Origin: Fragilariopsis cylindrus CCMP1102 | Lineage: Eukaryota > Bacillariophyta > Bacillariophyceae > Bacillariales > Bacillariaceae | DNA: 64,000 bases | NCBI GenBank assembly: GCA_900095095.1 | Contig: FMBT01000510.1 | Span: 1-64,000, forward strand | Direction of reading: 5' to 3' | Shown: positions 1 to 62,250 of the stretch, piece by piece | How the letters are laid out: the number at the start of each line of letters is the position of its first letter | How positions within the stretch are numbered: the stretch's first letter is position 1 | The notes under the pieces: generated by a model | Told to the model about the DNA's origin: nothing | The model's database searches: none | Seen by the model: the letters and a program-made list of their open reading frames with translations, nothing else | Position numbers and translations under genes: made by a program

Positions 1-638
1 ACAAATTTTGACAGGTATTTCCACACAAATACTCATAAAATAAACTAACCCATCTAAAGCTGAAACCATTAGGGTTTCTGGTTCACATGCTACACCTTGT
101 GCAATTTTTTTTTTTTTGGATTTTAGCTAATATAGGGTAAAAATTGGTTTTTGGCCCTTGACGAACAAAGCAAACCCCTGTTCAGCAATATTTTCCTGCA
201 GACATATTAATTTTAAGCATATAATGGGTTCCATAACTTTATTTTCCAAAAAAAGTGCTTCTAGAAAAAATAATAGCCGCAACAAATTAACTGGTAACAT
301 GGTGCGTTAAAAGGCTAGTCATTGTAAAGAAATGTGTGCATGAACTGAAGAAGCGCCTACACCATACTTTGGATCCATTATTCATTACACATTTGGTAAG
401 GTAGAGGAACTCTCCCTGACCAAAAAGAAGCATTTTATTGGAAGTTCTACCCTGCTTTGTGTCCTGAACAAGATATCTCATAAAAAGATGATGTGTGCTG
501 TGTGTGAGCCTACATTGTGAGATACCAGTAGGCTTAGGAGACTAAGGGATACAATAGTTCTCCATCCAATAGGTCAATTGTAAACTTCATGGTTTTTTTT
601 TCTCCAAAAAAATGACTTTTAGGTGTATATTCTTGATA
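1..638. repeat. Dispersed repeat R, copy 1, left part
   Basis: No gene is supported here. The stretch aligns closely with 48080-48720, for example around the shared words for ACTCATAAAATAAACTAACC and GTGTGAGCCTACATT. Its last 150 bp also match the reverse complement of 60520-60662. It is interrupted at 639 by a DNA transposon and resumes at 5613. The family occurs beside satellite blocks and the telomere-type array, so a subtelomeric repeat is the best guess. Short open frames inside it are not conserved between copies. Confidence 0.85.
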
Positions 639-867
639 TTGTAGTTTTCGTGAACATTGATAATAAGGATCAATACATATATTTATTTAAAAAAAACTTT
701 TTTACCAACTTTTTAAAAGTAGTATATAATGATCCAGTACAGTCTTCTTGTATAGGGAAAAAATAATTTAGTTTGGAAATTTTAGTTCCACATGTCTATT
801 TTGTGAGCTAAAACATGCCTCCCCATACATACCTTTTAATCGTGAATGACTAGTGATTCAAAATTAA
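639..867 (+). repeat. Left terminal inverted repeat of the transposon
   Basis: These 229 bp match the reverse complement of 5384-5612 with scattered substitutions and no net length change. A weaker match continues for about 25 bp further inwards, to about 892. The outermost bases lie next to a TA dinucleotide. Confidence 0.92.
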
Positions 868-1083
868 CCCGTACTAGTACGCACTAAAATCAGAAATTAG
901 TCATTTTGAAAAAATATAGGCATTAACTTAGGATTGTCCAACGATTCGCTTCATTAAGACAACAAACCATCAAACGAACGAATGATCGAATGCACCAACC
1001 AATACACCACACTACAATACACAACAAGTGAAGGGACAACTAAGTTGTAGAGAGAGAGAGAGAGAGAGAGAGGAGAAGAAAAG
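868..1083 (+). promoter_or_regulatory. Leader of the cargo gene, with a GA tract
   Basis: This is the gap between the left inverted repeat and the first cargo ATG. It contains a perfect GA dinucleotide tract at about 1051-1072, immediately upstream of the start codon. It probably holds the promoter and 5' leader of the plus-strand cargo unit, but no defined promoter element is recognised. Confidence 0.35.
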
Positions 1084-2757
1084 ATGACGTCCCGGGAACT
1101 AAAAGATTTGAATAAGTTCAATGAAACCATGGGATATGGTAGTGCAAGAGGTGCAAGGAGGTCAGCCCGCACCAATAATGCTGATGTCAATGACAATGAT
1201 GACGACGAGTTTGACATGACTGATTACTGTCAAAAAGTTGCTAATGAAGAAGAAGAAGATGAAGAAATGATGGAAGAGAGAAGAGGCCGTCCAGTAGGTA
1301 AGAGTACTACTAAGAAAACAACAGGATGCGAAAGTGATGGTAGTTACAACTCTAGTGGTAGTAATGATACTGATGATGGAATTGATGATCATGACAAGGA
1401 TGAGGATTTTGTACCTGCATCAAATACGAAAGCGAAAGTAGCATCGTCAAAGAAGAAACAGAAGAGTCAACCCATTGATAGAAGCAGAGTCAAGAAACCC
1501 AAAAAATGGGAGAATCCAGATGGACTTTCTAATTCACCAGTACAAGTTTCACTTCGAGTAGCATTTCTTCAATTGGACCGTAAATCATCAGATATTGTCT
1601 ATCCATTAGCAGGCAAAGCACACAAAAGGCATGATTATAAACCTCCAGGTTTTAATTCTGCTTCATCATTTGAAGAATTAGAAAGACATTTGAAGGATCT
1701 TATTGGGAAAGATACAGATAATTATGATGTACTTGAAAGGGATTTTGCTTTTATCTACTATGATCCTACATATGAATCTGTATCACCAGGTCATGATGGA
1801 TCCATTAGTGATATGAAAAGTAGAGATACTGTATTGACTCCAATTACGGACGTACATGAATTTAAGAAGGCATTAATTAGTTCCGGTTTAGTTTTAGATG
1901 TTGGTGATAATGATGATGAAACTATTGTTAGTACTGGTAGTGCTGATTCTGATAGTGTACCTTTACAATTATATCATCTTGATGTAGTTGTAACAGTAAA
2001 GAAAGCAAAGACAACATCAGCAACTAGCCGCAGCCGTAAGGCTATTAAGATGATTAAATTTAATGTTTTGAATCCAGTTATTAAGATAAAGGAGGAGAAA
2101 GAAAGTAAAAAATCTAGGAACAATAATACTAATAGTAGTAATAGCAGTGATGATGATGAAGATGATGAAGATGATGATGATAGTGATGACAATGAAGTTT
2201 ATACTTATGAAATTGACGGTGGAAAACAATCAATCGGATCATTTGAATTAGACTATACAGATGTTGGTGACCATTTTTATGATCCTGTGAGAGCAGGTGC
2301 TGTTGCTATTTATAACAAAAAAGAAAACAAAAAATTGAAAAAAAGAATTGGAATGAAGTCTCCTATATGTATTCTTAATGATGGTCGTAAAAAAGTTTGT
2401 ACTGTATTAAGAAGTACAGATGAACTTATTGCTTATATTGATAAATGCAAATCAAAACAAAATAGTGTTAAGAAAGGTGTATTAGAACTTGATATTGCAT
2501 TAGGTGAGAAACTACAAGATGATGAATATGCTCCGCCCCTTCATTTCTTGTCATCACAAACTAGCACTGGTACTGTTGGTACTAAGAGTGTTAATTCGCC
2601 ACAAGAAAAGACAAAATCAAAAGCATCGGATACAAAAAAGGCTGCTCTGTTTAATGAGCAGCTTAAAGTCGATATAAAAACTATCTTCATTGCTTACTAT
2701 AAGTACTCTCCTGAATATAAAAGAAATTATGTTCAGAGCATTATGATGCTATGCTAA
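1084..2757 (+). CDS. Acidic cargo protein of the transposon, ORF1
   Basis: A 557-residue open frame inside the transposon; I do not recognise the family. The first 150 residues are charged and low in complexity, with a DEFD/EEEEDEE acidic stretch, an RRGRPVGKS AT-hook-like motif and a lysine-rich patch (KKKQKSQ), which suggests a nuclear, DNA- or chromatin-associated protein. Residues about 155-300 look globular. A second acidic run lies near residues 350-370, and a globular part follows to about 470. The frame stops at 2757, and sequence that reads as its continuation (YAKKYRNSHTEVKKMM) carries on in another frame into the next open frame. ORF1 and the next ORF are therefore probably one gene of about 790 codons with a single frame break. 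The GA-rich leader and start at 1084 are plausible. The function is unknown. Confidence 0.75.
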   Translation: MTSRELKDLNKFNETMGYGSARGARRSARTNNADVNDNDDDEFDMTDYCQKVANEEEEDEEMMEERRGRPVGKSTTKKTTGCESDGSYNSSGSNDTDDGIDDHDKDEDFVPASNTKAKVASSKKKQKSQPIDRSRVKKPKKWENPDGLSNSPVQVSLRVAFLQLDRKSSDIVYPLAGKAHKRHDYKPPGFNSASSFEELERHLKDLIGKDTDNYDVLERDFAFIYYDPTYESVSPGHDGSISDMKSRDTVLTPITDVHEFKKALISSGLVLDVGDNDDETIVSTGSADSDSVPLQLYHLDVVVTVKKAKTTSATSRSRKAIKMIKFNVLNPVIKIKEEKESKKSRNNNTNSSNSSDDDEDDEDDDDSDDNEVYTYEIDGGKQSIGSFELDYTDVGDHFYDPVRAGAVAIYNKKENKKLKKRIGMKSPICILNDGRKKVCTVLRSTDELIAYIDKCKSKQNSVKKGVLELDIALGEKLQDDEYAPPLHFLSSQTSTGTVGTKSVNSPQEKTKSKASDTKKAALFNEQLKVDIKTIFIAYYKYSPEYKRNYVQSIMMLC

Positions 2758-2791
2758 GAAGTACCGTAATTCACATACAGAGGTAAAGAAA

Positions 2792-3466
2792 ATGATGAAA
2801 GAAGTACAACAACATCAATTTCGTACACTAAATTGGATGAATGGATATCAAAGTTTAACAAGAGCTGGTGTTCCTCCATTCAGTGATAATGTTGAGTATA
2901 ATTGGGATTGCGTCAACGATATGCCCAGTGGAAGACAAGAAGTTACAACACCACAACAACAAGGACTCTTGATACAACAACAGATGGTATCGACTGTACA
3001 GTCATTGGTTCAAAGTAAAACTGATACAAACAAAGCGACAGCAATCAGAATCTTTCGTAAAGTATTAGTAAATAATAGTAATAATAGTTATGGCAATGGT
3101 GGTAGTGGTGATAATGATGATGCACTTGTAACTGAACAAGAGATCAGTGTTATTTTATCAACAACTGATTTAGATAAATGCACTACTGGTAATGATGTAT
3201 TGAAAGAAGCACATGCAGAGTCTCAGAAATTGCCTTCATCCTCTGCTTTATTTCATTTTGATCAAAGCGATTTGGATTCTCTTAAAAGTAAAGATAAAGT
3301 AATTATATATCGATTTCGTGATCTTGATCCTCCATCTGAAAAATTCAAAGTGATGACTATTAAGGAGATTTTGAAAGGTCGTAATGAAACTGTTAATATT
3401 GAAATGGAACTTATCAATGTACATATAGATCCAACAGCAGTTGATGGAGGGGGTTTTATGTTTTAA
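2792..3466 (+). CDS. Cargo protein of the transposon, ORF2 (probable ORF1 C-terminus)
   Basis: A 224-residue open frame beginning 34 bp after the ORF1 stop. The same frame is open upstream to about 2747, so the ATG at 2792 is probably internal rather than a true start. It contains a conserved-looking block, LNWMNGYQSLTRAGVPPF, then Gln/Asn/Asp-rich linkers, and a C-terminal part with FHFDQSDLDSL and YRFRDLDPP. No family is recognised and there are no membrane segments. It converges on the transposase gene 330 bp downstream. The simplest model is the C-terminal part of the ORF1 protein after a frameshift; a separate second protein or a spliced junction are alternatives. Confidence 0.65.
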   Translation: MMKEVQQHQFRTLNWMNGYQSLTRAGVPPFSDNVEYNWDCVNDMPSGRQEVTTPQQQGLLIQQQMVSTVQSLVQSKTDTNKATAIRIFRKVLVNNSNNSYGNGGSGDNDDALVTEQEISVILSTTDLDKCTTGNDVLKEAHAESQKLPSSSALFHFDQSDLDSLKSKDKVIIYRFRDLDPPSEKFKVMTIKEILKGRNETVNIEMELINVHIDPTAVDGGGFMF

Positions 3467-3796
3467 ATATAGTAACTTTTCGCAAATATTTACGAATAAA
3501 GAGATCCTGGATATTCAGAAACACTAGTAAAACAACTAGTAAAAGTACTTGGGGATTGAACACTGGACAGTTTTTCAGTAAAGAGATCCTGGATATTACA
3601 ATAACGATACTACTACTACTATATATAGTAGTACTACTACTATCATTACGACTAGTTGTACTATCATTACTACTACTACTAGTTGTACTATCATTACTAG
3701 TACTACTAGTAGTATATATAGTAGTACTTCTACTAGTTGTACTATCATTACTAGTACATCATTCTATAGATAATGTACGATATTAAACCTACTATT
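3467..3796. repeat. Low-complexity tail region between convergent transposon genes
   Basis: The 3' ends of the cargo unit and the transposase face each other here. An 18-bp word AAAGAGATCCTGGATATT occurs twice, at about 3498 and 3578. From about 3597 to 3775 the DNA is built of TACTACTAC, TAGTAGTAC and CTAGT words that are largely self-complementary and could fold extensively. No coding sequence is credible. Confidence 0.7.
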
Positions 3797-5017
3797 CTAT
3801 AATGTAACTGCAAGTGCAACAACAACAGCAGTCATTGTAGATGTCATAATAGTATAATTGCTATCCATTTCCATCTCCATTTGTTCGACTACTTTAATAG
3901 ATGGGAAATTTTGTGAATGTGGTACTAGGCTCTTCTTGAAGAAAGATCGTGCTATATCAGGAGTTACACTACACAATGCAATATCATGTGCAACATCCCA
4001 TGGTTCATCATGGTGTCTCTTTAGTTGTTTCTTGTAGTGTCCAAACATAAGTTCAATAGGATTAAATTGAGGTGAATATGCTGGCAGTTTAATTAAAATT
4101 GCACCCTTGCTATTAATAAGATCTTCAACATCAGGATGACCATGGATTGTAGCATTGTCCATTACAACTATACTTCTAGGCTCACCTAAACTGTAATTAC
4201 CAAGACCTGGCAGCAAACCTGTACGTAACCAATCAACGAATCTGTCACCATCAATTGTACCATGAGATGCATCTTTATCACTAGAAGAAGATTTTTGTTG
4301 TACTGTTTCACATGCCTCCCATATAAAACCATTCCAATCACAAGCAGCTAGTAGAGTGTATCGCTTTGCTTTATGTCCAGCAAAATATGCATCACGAAAT
4401 GGTGATAGACCTCTAATAAACCAATGGCGACGACGACGACTTGAATTCCTATCTTTTTGACTTTCATCAATGAATACAAGCTCACTAGGATGGAGACAAT
4501 GTTCTTCTAACTCCTCAAGATACTCCTTCTGCTTTTGTTCATCAGCATCGTATGTTCTATCTGCTACAACTTGAAGTGAGTAACCAACATCACCAATTAA
4601 TCTGGTCCATAGATAACTAGCAGACCAATCATCCTGCATTTGTAAACAAAAAGTTAATTGAATTTCATCTAAATAAAATTCAGGATGATCATCAACAATC
4701 TCCTTTAAAGTAGCAGTGTGCTCATCCGTCCATCTTCCTCTATTAGTTCTTCTTGTGTATCTCCTTTTGTACCTTCTTACTTCTTTTCTATCCGCCATAG
4801 CAGGAGTGTCTCCATATTGTATGAAGTGGTTCCACCATCTTCGAATTGTTAATGGCTTAGCACTAGGATAAATCTTTTGTTGTGTTTCTAATATTGCCTG
4901 TTGTAGTCTTGTCCTATGACCTGATCCTTCATAAGATTCATAAACATCAGGACCTAATATATCACAAATATGCTCTATACATTCTTGTTGAATTCGAATT
5001 CTATTGTGCATCACCAT
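3797..5017 (-). CDS. Tc1/mariner (IS630-type) DDE transposase
   Basis: A 406-residue transposase that would cut and paste the surrounding element. Residues 1-70 resemble the helix-turn-helix region that binds the inverted repeats, including TIRRWWNHFIQYG. A basic linker with many RRYKRRYTRR-type residues follows at 80-95. The RNase H-like catalytic domain shows VFIDES (Asp184), VVMDNATIHGH (Asp287) and a PQFNPIELMFGHYKK block (Glu322). That gives 34 residues between the second Asp and the Glu, the DD34E pattern of Tc1-like enzymes. The NPIE block is typical of the DDE_3 family. The frame is intact, so the element may have been active recently. The last 30 residues are hydrophobic, low in complexity and probably dispensable. 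Confidence 0.93.
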   Translation of the reverse strand: MVMHNRIRIQQECIEHICDILGPDVYESYEGSGHRTRLQQAILETQQKIYPSAKPLTIRRWWNHFIQYGDTPAMADRKEVRRYKRRYTRRTNRGRWTDEHTATLKEIVDDHPEFYLDEIQLTFCLQMQDDWSASYLWTRLIGDVGYSLQVVADRTYDADEQKQKEYLEELEEHCLHPSELVFIDESQKDRNSSRRRRHWFIRGLSPFRDAYFAGHKAKRYTLLAACDWNGFIWEACETVQQKSSSSDKDASHGTIDGDRFVDWLRTGLLPGLGNYSLGEPRSIVVMDNATIHGHPDVEDLINSKGAILIKLPAYSPQFNPIELMFGHYKKQLKRHHDEPWDVAHDIALCSVTPDIARSFFKKSLVPHSQNFPSIKVVEQMEMEMDSNYTIMTSTMTAVVVALAVTL

Positions 5018-5383
5018 TGTATGTATTCATGTATTGACGACGTTGTATGACGTTAACAATGAGGTTGACGTTGACAATGACAATACGACGATGACGATAC
5101 GACAATACGGCGATGACGGTACAATAATACCTGATGATAACAGAACAAGAAGAAGAAGGAATATTAACTATTGTATTGCTGTTGTGTTATTGTGTGTGTT
5201 GTATTGATCGTTCGTTCCTTCCTTCCTTCCTTCCTTCTTTCCCCCTTCGTGTATTATTTTTAATCGTCGCCGTTGTTACAATCGTCGACGTTGTTAATCG
5301 TCGTCGTTGTTACATCCTATCCTACCTCCTATCTTTTTTCATCTTTTCGCGCCAACATGATCTTAGCGCGTACTATTTACGTC
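5018..5383. promoter_or_regulatory. Leader of the transposase gene
   Basis: This is the gap between the transposase start and the right inverted repeat. It holds short GACGTTGACAATGAC-like repeats at about 5035-5110, a (TTCC)n run near 5216-5236 and CGTCGTTGTTA repeats at 5270-5310. These would lie in the transposase 5' leader. No defined promoter is seen. Confidence 0.35.
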
Positions 5384-5612
5384 TTAATTTTGAATCACTA
5401 GTCATTCACGATTAAAAGGTATGTATGGGGAGGCATGTTTGCGCTCACAAAATAGACAAGTGAACCTATTTTTTCCAAACTCAATTATTTTTTTCCTATA
5501 CAAGAAGACAGTACTGGACCATAATATACTACTTTTGAAAAGTTGGTGAAAAAGTTTTTTTTTAATATATATATGTATTGATCCTTATTATCAATGTTCA
5601 CGAAAACTACAA
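5384..5612 (-). repeat. Right terminal inverted repeat of the transposon
   Basis: The reverse complement of this stretch matches 639-867 over its full 229 bp. It ends in ...CTACAA next to the right-hand TA target duplication at 5613-5614. Confidence 0.92.
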
Positions 5613-7642
5613 TACTAAAGTTGTTATTATATACTAGACTAACAAATATTAGTGAAATTTGGGCATTGTTTAGTTGTTATATTCGTACGTGGAATGCTTC
5701 CTGTCTTCTTTTTGATGTAAAGTTCAATGTCCAATTAAGACGCCCGTCCAATCTTCTCTTGCGGACAAATATGGCATGTGTTAACGCGACTAAACTTTTT
5801 CTGATACATACATGTGTGGAAGCACGAGTTGAAAACTGCTCGAGCGCCGTTAAAATGATCGCTACTACTAAATTCTTAAATTAACGTCACGCATGTCGAA
5901 CGAATTAGAACAACACACATTATTATTTTAGGCTCTGAAGAAAAACTGCTTCACGTGGAACTAAATTTTTAAATTAACGCATTCTATTTTTGTCGAACGC
6001 ATTACGGAAATATTAACCTGATAATAAAGACATACATTTTCGTGCCGTTAAAAACTGCTCGTGCCGTTTAAAAACTACTCGTGCTATTAAAAACTACTCG
6101 TGCTATTAAAAACTGCTCGTGCCTTTAAAATAATGATCACTATTACTAAAATTTTAAATTAACCAGCACGCATTATTGTCGAACGATTTGGAACAAGACA
6201 TAACTTTAGGCCCTGATATCTTCAAATCCGATCGAATAGATAACCCCTATCTCAGTATATAACGGGCTACAACATGAATGAGTCGAACCGCGTCGAATGA
6301 GAAGAAAACTGCTCGAGCGCCGTTCTAGTAACGTGATAGGTTCGCACACACGAGTTGATTACAATAATGATCGCTCATTTAACGGACTAACAGTTACAAA
6401 CATGATGTGAGTAGAAAACTAAATTTTTAGATTAACGCATTCTAACCCTAGGATTCTATTTTTTGTCGAACGCATTACGTAAGTAAAAAAATTCTACCGG
6501 TAACCTGATAATACTAAAAGACACACAATATAAAATTTCATTACCATTGCTTACGAAATTAACGAACAAGTAAGTCCCTGAATTGTTTGTGTTGTAGTAC
6601 TGTATTTGCGGTCTTCTGTTACTGAGTTATTTTGGATAAAAGATGTAGAGAGATGACGAGGTTTGTCTTGTCTACTGTGTGCGTATCGTATCCACTTTTG
6701 TTTTCTTTACTGTCTTAGTAAATGAAGATGACGAGGTTTGTTCTTGTCAGAGTGTCTTTCTATTATCCACTTTTGTTGCCATAGTGTCGCACATCTCTCG
6801 CATGTACTTTCAAAACGAAACGGATATTTCACGAGTGTGTTAATAACGACAAAGAATCACGGTTGCATTTTGTCATTTGGGGAAAATTTTATGACGATGT
6901 AAGTGGCGTGGGTGGCAGACACATTTCGAATCGAATCGCCAGGAATTGCCTGCCACCCATACCACCTCATCTTATTTTCCCCAAATGACCAAATTCAACT
7001 GAAACTTTTTGTCTGTATTAAGAGTACCAATATCTATATTTCGTCTCGTTAGTTTGTATCAAACAGATCGATATTTATTTAGTTTTGAACAATTTTATTC
7101 CCATTGTCACCATGATGATGGGATAATTTTCGTCTTCAATACAAGTGAAAACAGCTTCGACTCATGAATCAAATATTTTTGATTCGAATGGTTGATTGAC
7201 TAGTTCGATTAAATGTTAGCTGTTTCAAAATGAATCGCGGGCGCACTCTGGGGGATGTGAATTTTCGTTGATTTTCGATTTTTTTAAATCGAGGAATGTT
7301 CCTGATACAGTTCATGTGCAGTACCGGTATGTGCGGAAGCACGAGTGAAACCTGCCCGCGCCGTACTAATAGTTTCGCACATTTTTTGATTAAAATTTAA
7401 TCAAATGTGCGAATCTACTTCGCCCAAGTCACGTGTAATGCGTTGTAGAACGCATAGAACACAACATTACGTAAACTCCGACATTTAACGGACTTCAACA
7501 TGCATTTAACGGACCACAACCATGTGAAAGAAACTGCTCCCGCAGTACTCACGAGTTGATTTAAAATGGAACGCTCATACTGTACTAAATTTTTAAATTA
7601 ACTTCACGTATTGCATGTCGAACGCATTAGAACACCACATTA
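5613..7642. repeat. Rest of repeat R, then degenerate dispersed repeats
   Basis: Bases 5613 to about 5700 continue repeat R after the transposon and match 48733-48815. From about 5810 to 7650 a degenerate motif recurs: AAAACTGCTCG(A/T)GC, then a word like CTAAATTTTTAAATTAAC, then GTCGAACGCATTA. It is visible near 5832, 5950, 6050-6190, 6310, 6415 and 7530. A GGAAGCACGAGT word occurs at about 5818 and 7335. No credible gene is seen; the 96-residue frame at 5594-5884 runs across repeat junctions. Confidence 0.65.
6870..6992. repeat. Large imperfect palindrome
   Basis: The outer arms TCATTTGGGGAAAAT (about 6873) and ATTTTCCCCAAATGA (about 6974) are complementary. Inner arms around GTGGGTGGCAG (about 6908) and CTGCCACCCAT (about 6949) also pair. 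The loop contains CGAATCGAATCG. The whole 120-bp structure could form a cruciform or hairpin and may be a small palindromic MITE. Confidence 0.7.
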
Positions 7643-48079: not shown

Positions 48080-48815
48080 TGCTCCAAAACAAATTTTGAC
48101 ATGTATTTTCACACAAATACTCATAAAATAAACTAACCCACCTAAAGCCGAAACCATTGGGGCTTCTGTTTCATATGCTACATCTCGTGCAAAATTATTT
48201 TAAGTGGATTTTAGCTAAAATAGGGTATTTATTGGTTTTTGTTCGGTGACGAAGAAAGCAAACCCCTGTATGTACCCACTGTCTTGCATACATATAAATA
48301 TTAAGCATATAATGGGTTCCATGATTTTATTTTTCGAAAAAAGTTCTTCACGCAAAAATAATAGCCGCAGCAAATTAACTAGTAACATCGTGCGTTAAAG
48401 GCTCGTCATGGTACAGGAATGTGTGCATGAACTGAAGGAGTGAATACCACATATTTTAAGACCAATATTTATTACACACATGGTAAGGTAGAGGAACTCT
48501 CGCTGACCAAAAAAAAGCATTTTCCTGGAAGTTCTACCCTGCTTTGTGTCCAGAACAAGATATCTCATAAAAAGATGCTGTGTGCTGTGTGTGAGCCTAC
48601 ATTATGAGATACCAGTAGGCTTACAAGACTAAGGAATATAATGTTTTTCCATTCAATAGATCAATTGTAAACTTCATAGTCAATTTTTCCAAAAACAGGA
48701 CTTTTTAGGTGTATATATTTGATGCTAAAGTTGTTATTATATACCACACTAACAAATACTAGTAATTTTTTTGGGCATGATTTAGTTTTTATATTAATTA
48801 CTACTTCCACGCAGG
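48080..48815. repeat. Dispersed repeat R, copy 2, uninterrupted
   Basis: Aligns with 1-638 and then, without a break, with 5613 to about 5700. At about 48720-48735 it reads TATTTGATGCTAAAGTTG where copy 1 carries the transposon between CTTGATA and TACTAAAGTTG. It therefore preserves the empty target site. No gene. Confidence 0.88.
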
Positions 48816-60454: not shown

Positions 60455-60662
60455 AGTCATGAATATAAAAACTAAATCAGGCCCAAATTTTACTAGTATT
60501 TGTTACTGTAGTATAATAACAACTTTAGCATCAAGTATATACACCTAAATAGTCATTTTTCTGAGAATTAAACCATGAAGATTACAATTGACCTATTGGA
60601 TGGAGAACTGTCATATTCCTTAGTCTTGTAAGCCTACTGGTATCAGACAATGTAGGCTCACA
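60455..60662. repeat. Dispersed repeat R, copy 3, inverted fragment
   Basis: The reverse complement matches 480-638 plus 5613-5690, and 48590-48800. It reads GTATATACTTGATGCTAAAG across the position where copy 1 carries the transposon, so this is a second empty site. Confidence 0.85.
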
Positions 60663-62250
60663 CAATGCACACATCAAATAACCCCCAAAAATGGCCCATT
60701 TGCAGTGTTTTGTGGACATACAGTACACTCAAAAAGGTGAATCATCCCAAAATATATGGATGGGGTGCACCATATATACCAAAGGGAACTTACTCTTGGT
60801 GCTTTGTGTTGATGGTCCAGCTTTGGTGGACACAAAAGTGGAAAACCCTGTTTTGGGGCCTAAATGGCCCAATTTGTGGTTAATGCAACCCTTTACCTTC
60901 ATAACCTCCATAGAACCCTAAGCATTATAGAGACCTTGCAGGTATGGGTATGATGGATACTAGTGCACTCGACCCATCTGGTGTTGTCCTCTGCAACCCT
61001 TCCAAATGAGATATTTTGTTGTTCATTTTGATCGAAAATCATGTTATTTGTGTGCCTTCCACAACAACAACTCATTTGAAAGTGTTGCAGAGGACAACAC
61101 CTTCTGGGGCAGGTGCACTTGCATCCTTATAGTATAATAACACATTTTAGTTGCCTCCTACCACTTTTTTGTTCCTGTGGTCGTTGAATAAATTACAAAC
61201 CGCTGTTGTGGAAGGCACACAAACAGAATGAATTTTGACCAGAAATGTACAACAATATATCTCATTTGAAAGTGTTGTAGAGGACAACACCTTCTGAGTG
61301 GGGTGCACTAGCATCCAGTATACCTATACCTACAAGATCCTTATAATGCTAAGGTTTCTATGGAGGTTATGAAGTTGTAGGGCAGCATTAACAGCGAACT
61401 GGTATCTCATACATCAAATAACCCAAAAAATGGTTTGCCTTCCACAACACCAAAATGAATATCGTTCTGTAACCACAGAAACAGAAAACTGGTCGGAGGC
61501 AAACACAATGTTCTAGTACAGTATGTGGATGCTTATGCCCCCACCCCAGAAGATGGTTTCCTCTACAACACTTTCAAATGAAATTTTATGGTTCATCTCT
61601 GATCAAAAAGCTTGCTGTTTGTGTACCTTCCACAACAGAAAAATGAATATTATTCTGCAAGCATATTTTGATTAGAACTGAACAACAAAATATCTTATTT
61701 GAAAGGGCTGGAGAGGACAACACCAGATAGGTTGGGTGCACTATCATCCACATAGTGTACTAAAACATAGTTATAGTGTCTGCCTCCTACAACTTTTCTA
61801 TTCCTGTGGTTGCTACATAAAATTCATTTCACTGTTATTGCAGGCACACAAACAATATAATTTTTGATCAGAACTGAGCAACAAACTATCTCATTTGAAA
61901 GTGTTGCAGAGGACAACACTAGAACATTGTGTGTGCCTCCTACTGACACTATAATTTTGCCTGCTTTGAGTAGATATCATGTTGTGTGTGACTATATAAT
62001 CTGTGACTTTATCATGGCAATTTGCAATGTACTACCATCTACTAAGTAGTCTAGATAAAGTTGCAGCAGCAGCAAAAGTCTTATTTGCTGGTTTTTATAA
62101 TGGTAGCGGCTTATGTCCAAGCATGGTAGCACCAAAGTAAGAGGTGGATATTTTAATACCATTGAACAGTGGGATAATAAATGATGCAGCAGCATTGTGT
62201 GTGTAATGTTGGTAAAATAATGTGTTATTTAAATTCTCCTTCCACCTGCC
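60663..62250. repeat. Subtelomere-like repeat block, both orientations
   Basis: Bases 60710-60930 are related to 46170-46410. From about 60960 to 61950 words such as TTTGAAAGTGTTGCAGAGGA, GTGCACTAGCATCC, CCTTCCACAACA and GTGCCTCCTA recur in direct and inverted order, related to the 190-bp satellite at 47055-47700. Near 62050-62200 are short Ala-rich open stretches that I could not assign. No gene is supported. Confidence 0.75.

Follow-up and report, generated by a model that had tools for sequence, protein, structure and literature searches.

The window, a 64,000-nucleotide stretch from Fragilariopsis cylindrus CCMP1102, contains at positions 639-5612 an element of 4,974 bp (the C598 copy). 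The element belongs to the IS630-Tc1-mariner group, as the TA duplication, the DD34E transposase and the terminal inverted repeats (TIRs) are all present. We consider it probable that this element is a low-copy cut-and-paste transposon with two genes arranged tail to tail, in which the protein encoded by the second gene (ORF1) would assist transposition. The features in the window, with their strand and the basis for each, are:

1-636 (+), host repeat of a high-copy family, left of the insertion (repeat comparison)
637-638 (no strand), left TA target-site duplication (junction letters, empty sites elsewhere)
639-868 (+), left TIR, about 230 bp, 27% G+C (arm comparison)
1084-2757 (+), first piece of ORF1, 557 residues (open frame, comparison with the C714 copy)
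1282-1293 (+), RGRP, AT-hook-like core, in both copies (four residues, picked by eye)
2728-2791 (+), frame break of ORF1 relative to the C714 copy (open frames, C714 comparison)
2792-3466 (+), second piece of ORF1, 224 residues (open frame, C714 comparison)
3593-3769 (no strand), low-complexity spacer between the convergent genes (repeat and copy comparison)
3797-5017 (-), DD34E transposase, 406 residues, D184/D287/E322 (open frame, Pfam, NCBIfam, triad alignment)
5383-5612 (-), right TIR (arm comparison)
5613-5614 (no strand), right TA target-site duplication (junction letters, empty sites elsewhere)
5615-5683 (+), host repeat right of the insertion, about 70 bp common to many copies (repeat comparison)
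48089-48795 (+), host-repeat copy with empty site, TG at the target (reads straight through)
60461-60676 (-), host-repeat copy with empty site, TG at the target (reads straight through)

Extent of the element and its insertion site

The termini, TTGTAG...CTACAA, lie directly inside a TA on each side, and the TA duplications claimed in the initial annotation are indeed found at 637-638 and 5613-5614. The long inverted repeats, given there as 229 bp, were likewise borne out at about 230 bp each and 92% alike, with 212 of 230 positions equal between the left and right arms. Including the TA, the inverted arms span 637-873 and 5378-5614 (237 nt, 92% complementary). The starts of the two genes lie about 215 and 365 bp inward of the TIRs, and both genes point inward, tail to tail; the C714 copy contains about 300 bp of additional repeat DNA in the spacer between them. 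ARAGORN placed a tRNA-Thr in the right TIR, a call that was rejected because Rfam gave no tRNA at that place.

The target of the insertion was a TA within one copy of the high-copy host repeat, and this TA was duplicated. Empty copies of the repeat with TG at the target, as had been described for the same window, were confirmed at 48089-48795 (+) and 60676-60461 (-), and contig C595, which is collinear with the window, also has an empty site with TG. The claim that only the window copy offered a usable site proved too narrow. A 21-base junction pattern, with A or G at the variable base, has 210 exact matches in the genome, and among the 100 listed, 98 have TG and two have TA (C31 and C297). 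The TA variant of the host repeat is therefore rare, yet not unique to the window copy. Such a rare variant within a mostly-TG repeat, together with the empty collinear contig, records target choice cleanly in nature.

The empty site on C595 makes the C598 insertion younger than the split between C598 and C595, which bounds its age from above only; the suggestion of a possibly recent insertion holds to the extent of this upper bound. Pieces longer than 1,000 bp are 82-94% identical between C598 and C595, and four other contig pairs have mean identities of 98.8, 96.4, 91.7 and 100% in pieces of at least 300 bp. C595 may represent an allele or instead a duplicate of the region. A flanking gene shows dS of 0.07, 0.08 and 0.21 between C598 and C595 in three segments (pooled 0.107). 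Diverged haplotypes have been reported for one diatom in the available text of PMC5634323.

The transposase and its partner gene

An intact DD34E transposase, as first annotated, is present as a 406-residue frame with the complete catalytic triad. D184, D287 and E322 are invariant in comparison with two bacterial IS630 proteins, and 34 residues separate the last D from the E. The Pfam family PF13358 (DDE_3) matched above its cut-off (E 5e-19), the sole other Pfam match, HTH_32, was below its cut-off, and NCBIfam NF033545 (transpos_IS630) scored 99.6 bits against a curated cut-off of 100. The 34-residue spacing and the TA rather than TATA duplication show that the features of Sailor elements, namely a long D-E spacing (DD82E) and TATA duplications as given in the available text of PMC8533490, are absent. 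Transposase matches occur in 650 plasmid records, none covering 80% of the protein at any one place. The eight listed are 26-35% identical; four are annotated as IS630 family transposase and the rest carry no annotation there. Four phage records contain partial matches of 28-39% identity. In searches reaching close relatives only, pattern matches to the transposase in prokaryote genomes, and to the transposase or ORF1 in viral contigs, were not confirmed.

The C714 copy encodes ORF1 as a single 796-residue frame, and the first piece in the window stays in frame with it as far as the break. Judged by this comparison, the forward frames 1084-2757 and 2792-3466 belong to one gene that has been broken, and the "extra genes" of the initial annotation reduce to a single one, broken here into 557 and 224 residues. 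The break could be an assembly error, because a flanking gene on C595 is likewise split into several frames.

ORF1 has a charged N-terminus and contains the residues RGRP, which we take to be an AT-hook-like core. This motif, spotted by eye first and tested afterwards, appeared in 69 of 20,000 shuffles of the C714 protein. ORF1 gave its best family matches to Cwf_Cwc_15 (E 0.02 and 0.14) and Treslin_STD (E 0.06), each falling short of its cut-off, and had no Pfam match to Fanzor/TnpB, endonuclease or methyltransferase families; PHROGs gave no match, and the best E-value among PDB chains was 0.49. A PB1-like reading of the middle region, made by eye, was dropped as Pfam lent it no support. Two AlphaFold models, of the whole protein and of the C-terminal part, were uninformative (mean pLDDT 28.8 and 39.2), their confidence being insufficient for a structure search. 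Because the family matches are not firm and the structure models uninformative, we can only infer the role of ORF1. The lack of a firm family match makes ORF1 the clearest novelty of the element.

Copies, selection and rival explanations

A search of the 67.9-Mb genome revealed one other full-length copy (C714), in which both frames are open, and one internally deleted copy (C90), which retains remnants of ORF1. Both have both ends with TA on each side, so the search for the same ends does find other copies, and the TA target-site duplication is present in the C598, C714 and C90 copies. Where several near-identical copies had been expected, there is one other full-length copy, about 90% alike (89.6-91.8% identity in two long pieces; dS 0.15-0.24). 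DDE_3 matches number only two in the genome. End pieces occur at 21 other loci, with 71-93% identity in pieces of at least 90 bases; at none of the 18 loci read does an inverted partner occur within the stretch examined.

Between the C598 and C714 copies, the one pair from which all dN/dS values derive, both genes are under purifying selection. The transposases share 401 of 406 residues (dS 0.155, dN 0.005, dN/dS 0.034, bootstrap 0.007-0.078), and dN/dS is 0.227 (bootstrap 0.158-0.333) for the first ORF1 piece and 0.134 (bootstrap 0.062-0.263) for the second. The first 150 codons of ORF1 change fast (dN 0.125, dS 0.25). The low dN/dS of both genes suggests that ORF1 is maintained as a partner gene and is not passive cargo. 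The "cargo-bearing" label, understood as loose cargo, does not fit a gene under purifying selection between copies, though it is broken in the window copy.

Tc1/mariner transposases are generally held to act alone, while the second gene of Harbinger elements helps the transposase. By analogy with Harbinger, the ORF1 protein would enter the nucleus, bind the AT-rich ends and help the transposase, and the TIRs would carry the transposase sites and the promoters of both genes. With its ORF1 broken, the window copy would be mobile only with ORF1 from another copy; should each copy require its own ORF1, the window copy would be immobile. A more demanding reading, in which DD34E transposase and large AT-hook-like ORF1 are both needed, copies with a broken ORF1 depend on an intact one, and the C714 copy lies in possibly virus-derived DNA, seems to us rather improbable. 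Were it true, this DNA around the C714 copy might be a vehicle for the element. A second gene kept by selection would make it testable whether a partner protein arose in some IS630-Tc1-mariner elements, as it did in Harbinger.

The scarcity of DDE_3 matches, the single internally deleted copy, the unpaired end pieces and the broken ORF1 could also indicate a dying family without remaining mobility, in which the transposase is open only since the insertion is not very old. We doubt this explanation, as it sits poorly with the dN/dS of 0.03 for the transposase, the absence of the insertion from C595 and the two open frames of the C714 copy. ORF1 might instead be a passenger, a captured fragment of a host gene selected for a property other than transposition. 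Its C-terminal region resembles an exon-like frame on C395/C480 (47 of 154 aligned columns, 31%), around which no inverted repeats were found in 8 kb. Such a capture is unlikely, since both ORF1 pieces are under purifying selection between the copies with a dS not below that of the transposase, and the likeness to the C395 frame is too remote for ORF1 to have been captured recently.

Instead of one lineage having spread the element by transposition, virus-like DNA might also have brought in the C598 and C714 copies separately. The C714 copy adjoins a frame that weakly matches DNA polymerases (PF03104, E 0.0014, below cut-off; phrog_262, E 0.0066) and in which a P-loop-like motif was discerned by eye, and dS between the copies (0.155-0.242) about equals or exceeds that of the flanking gene between C598 and C595. 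Further searches of the C714 flank for a viral nature, however, gave no match of weight, and the diverged end pieces across the genome point to a longer residence, making separate arrivals very unlikely.

Comparison with known systems

The element, read here as a two-gene transposon with a maintained ORF1, shares with the bacterial IS630 family the PF13358 match, DD34E and the TA target, and scores just under the NF033545 cut-off, but resides in a eukaryote and has 230-bp TIRs, a length of 5 kb and a second convergent gene. The initial annotation rightly placed its size far above that of typical Tc1/mariner elements; however, elements of the group longer than 4 kb and multi-gene ones are already in print, as are accessory genes, according to the available portions of PMC4495683, PMC3627910, PMC7325037 and PMC8533490. 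Fanzor-bearing Mariner elements, as far as described in the available text, similarly combine a mariner-type transposase with accessory genes as single copies in an algal setting, their accessory genes being an endonuclease with a methyltransferase, or Fanzor1 (PMC3627910); ORF1 has no Pfam match to these families. The ciliate Tec and TBE elements also carry a DD34E transposase with further ORFs, and Tec resembles the element further in its long TIRs (about 700 bp) and in having one ORF on the opposite strand. They differ, by the same partial source, in having three ORFs with a site-specific recombinase (Tec) or a zinc-finger protein (TBE), and are tied to ciliate genome rearrangement (PMC7325037).

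TcMar-2_Ec32 of the brown alga Ectocarpus is likewise an autonomous Tc1/mariner element in an alga (4.4 kb), and its 217-bp non-autonomous relative is present in far more copies; the addition in TcMar-2_Ec32 is an EsV-1-7 domain within the transposase, with no second gene in the available description (PMC12477816). Harbinger elements, as stated there for Ectocarpus, have the transposase and second gene tail to tail (PMC12477816), but belong to a different transposase superfamily with a three-base target duplication. The two-gene 5-kb element is a variation on a known theme, not a new kind of element.

Element ends, transposase and insertion site

The element ends in TTGTAG...CTACAA, and its inverted arms, with the flanking TA included, measure 237 nt and are 92% complementary. 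The features of the window are listed below.

1-636 and 5615-5683: host repeat, interrupted by the element
637-638 and 5613-5614: flanking TA dinucleotides
639-5612: element, IS630-Tc1-mariner group
1084-2757 and 2792-3466, plus strand: second gene (ORF1), in two pieces
3797-5017, minus strand: transposase
48089-48795, plus strand, and 60461-60676, minus strand: further copies of the host repeat

The transposase is a 406-residue open frame of the DDE type, scoring 69 bits against Pfam DDE_3 (cut-off 28.6) and 99.6 bits against the NCBIfam IS630 model (cut-off 100). The catalytic residues D184, D287 and E322, the latter two separated by 34 residues, align with those of two bacterial IS630 proteins (29% and 32% identity). 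A plasmid search matched 650 records; the best 8 of 650 were 26-35% identical. Half of these eight bear the annotation IS630 family transposase, and the other half have none under the match. Phage records gave partial matches in four entries. The terminal inverted repeats (TIRs) have a G+C content of 27%. ARAGORN called a tRNA-Thr in the right TIR (5443-5538), which Rfam does not support, and we rejected it.

The initial annotation had read the empty host-repeat copies with TG as evidence for insertion at a TA found only in the interrupted copy. Both other copies in the window are indeed uninterrupted at the insertion site and carry TG. The collinear contig C595, which is 94.4% identical over the 1,393 bp adjoining the site and 82-91% in other pieces longer than 1,000 bp, is likewise an empty site with TG. 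The 21-base junction pattern, matched exactly with only A or G permitted at the variable base, occurs 210 times in the genome for this host-repeat family; among the 100 matches listed, 98 have TG and two TA, so that TA is not unique to the interrupted copy, although the initial inference is otherwise of the right kind. With TG prevailing in the window copies, C595 and the junction matches, TG is very likely the ancestral state, and the element very likely targeted a rare TA variant of the repeat. The same comparison places the insertion after the split of C598 (the contig whose bases 1-64000 form the window) and C595, itself not small.

Copies elsewhere in the genome

We searched the 67.9-Mb genome (818 contigs) with the 232-bp end and found at least 29 places, two each on C598, C714 and C90 and 23 more at 21 loci; these counts are lower bounds, as only the best candidates were scored. 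The terminal-repeat search proposed earlier as a check on recent activity recovered the same ends with TA on C714 and C90, the rest being mostly solitary ends. For DDE_3, the genome yielded only two matches. The C714 copy (L009, a fetched stretch of that contig, 1650-6916) has two ends, TA on either side and both genes open. The C90 copy is internally deleted to 2.1 kb and retains both ends and TA.

From the TA onward, the right flank of the C714 copy matches small repeats on C648 and C507 (98 and 85 bases, 93% and 94%). Over 16 bases through the TA, these agree with its left flank at 15/16 and 13/16 positions, each the best of 585 offsets, and the likeness weakens farther left (20/30 and 18/30). 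The small repeats probably represent the empty version of the C714 site, with TA. The genome holds no second full copy of the 1.5-kb right flank, only short repeat pieces. Between the genes of the C714 copy, about 300 bp (L009 ~4629-4930) resemble DNA that occurs in tandem on C478, C531, C671 and C524, with an identity mostly of 78-83%. The frames adjoining this copy (L041 3374-3999, at C714 ~89.4-90.0 kb; L009 161-1473; L042 2525-3337) may be virus-like: one has weak DNA polymerase matches and another a P-loop-like motif, read by eye; the remaining searched frames gave no match of weight.

We fetched and read 18 of the 21 other loci, all except C690, C265 at 43.6 kb and C108 at 139.5 kb, and none had an inverted partner within the fetched stretch. 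The outer terminus is intact at 15 of the 18, where the adjoining dinucleotide is TA in 11, TG in two, and TC and AA in one each; the inner ends are ragged and differ among loci. Perhaps these solitary ends stem from one-ended or abortive events. Three pairs of loci have common flanks, and each pair may be a single insertion seen on two contigs, so that independent events would be fewer than loci. One C108 locus also holds a degraded transposase fragment, interrupted by five stop codons.

The second gene and selection

ORF1 forms two forward frames in the window (557 and 224 aa) and a single 796-aa frame on C714. The break, within 2,728-2,791, may be biological or an assembly error; a gene flanking the element is likewise split into several frames on C595. 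With complete ends and an open transposase, but not an open ORF1, the window copy may still be movable with help.

Between the C598 and C714 copies, the transposase has a dN/dS of 0.034 (dN 0.005, dS 0.155) and the two ORF1 pieces 0.227 and 0.134, with all three bootstrap ranges below 0.34. The first 150 codons of ORF1 change fastest (dN 0.125, dS 0.25). Both genes thus seem, from one pair of copies, to have been kept functional over most of the time since the copies split. For a gene adjoining the element, dS between C598 and C595 is 0.07, 0.08 and 0.21 in three segments (0.107 pooled); set against this, the copy dS dates the copies' split to about the time of the C598/C595 split, or before it. 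Within the window copy the TIRs differ at 18 of 230 positions, which is little guide to age.

ORF1 has no match of weight in Pfam, NCBIfam or PDB; Cwf_Cwc_15, Treslin_STD and PDB chains, the last with E values of 0.49 at best, all fall under the cut-offs. AlphaFold gave no usable model. The N-terminal part has many charged residues and, in both copies, RGRP, which we take to be an AT-hook core; this motif was spotted before the test was made, in which 69 of 20,000 shuffled versions of the C714 protein contained it. The last ~150 residues resemble a frame on C395 (L029 3863-5032; counterpart on C480 in L030), with 31% identity over 154 columns (E 4e-11 in a single comparison, 2e-7 in the genome search). 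The C395 and C480 stretches agree base for base across 7,856 bp, so they are probably one locus seen twice; no inverted repeats surround the frame in the 8 kb fetched. The frame is possibly a host relative or an old domesticated copy. From layout, selection and charge, we infer that ORF1 encodes a transposition partner.

Place among known elements

A partial literature search found no published description of this element, and the eukaryotic sequence searched was this genome alone; the particular partner gene may be new. Tc1/mariner elements are typically 1.3-2.5 kb, those above 4 kb being commoner among pogo (PMC8533490). Multi-gene elements and elements above 4 kb are already in print, so that neither size nor an extra gene is new for the group. 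At 4,974 bp, our element compares with a 4.4-kb autonomous element of Ectocarpus, which has a short relative (PMC12477816). It shares the possession of an extra gene with the multi-gene Tec and TBE elements of the IS630-Tc1-mariner group (PMC7325037) and with algal-virus Mariners, which bear an endonuclease and a methyltransferase, or Fanzor (PMC3627910).
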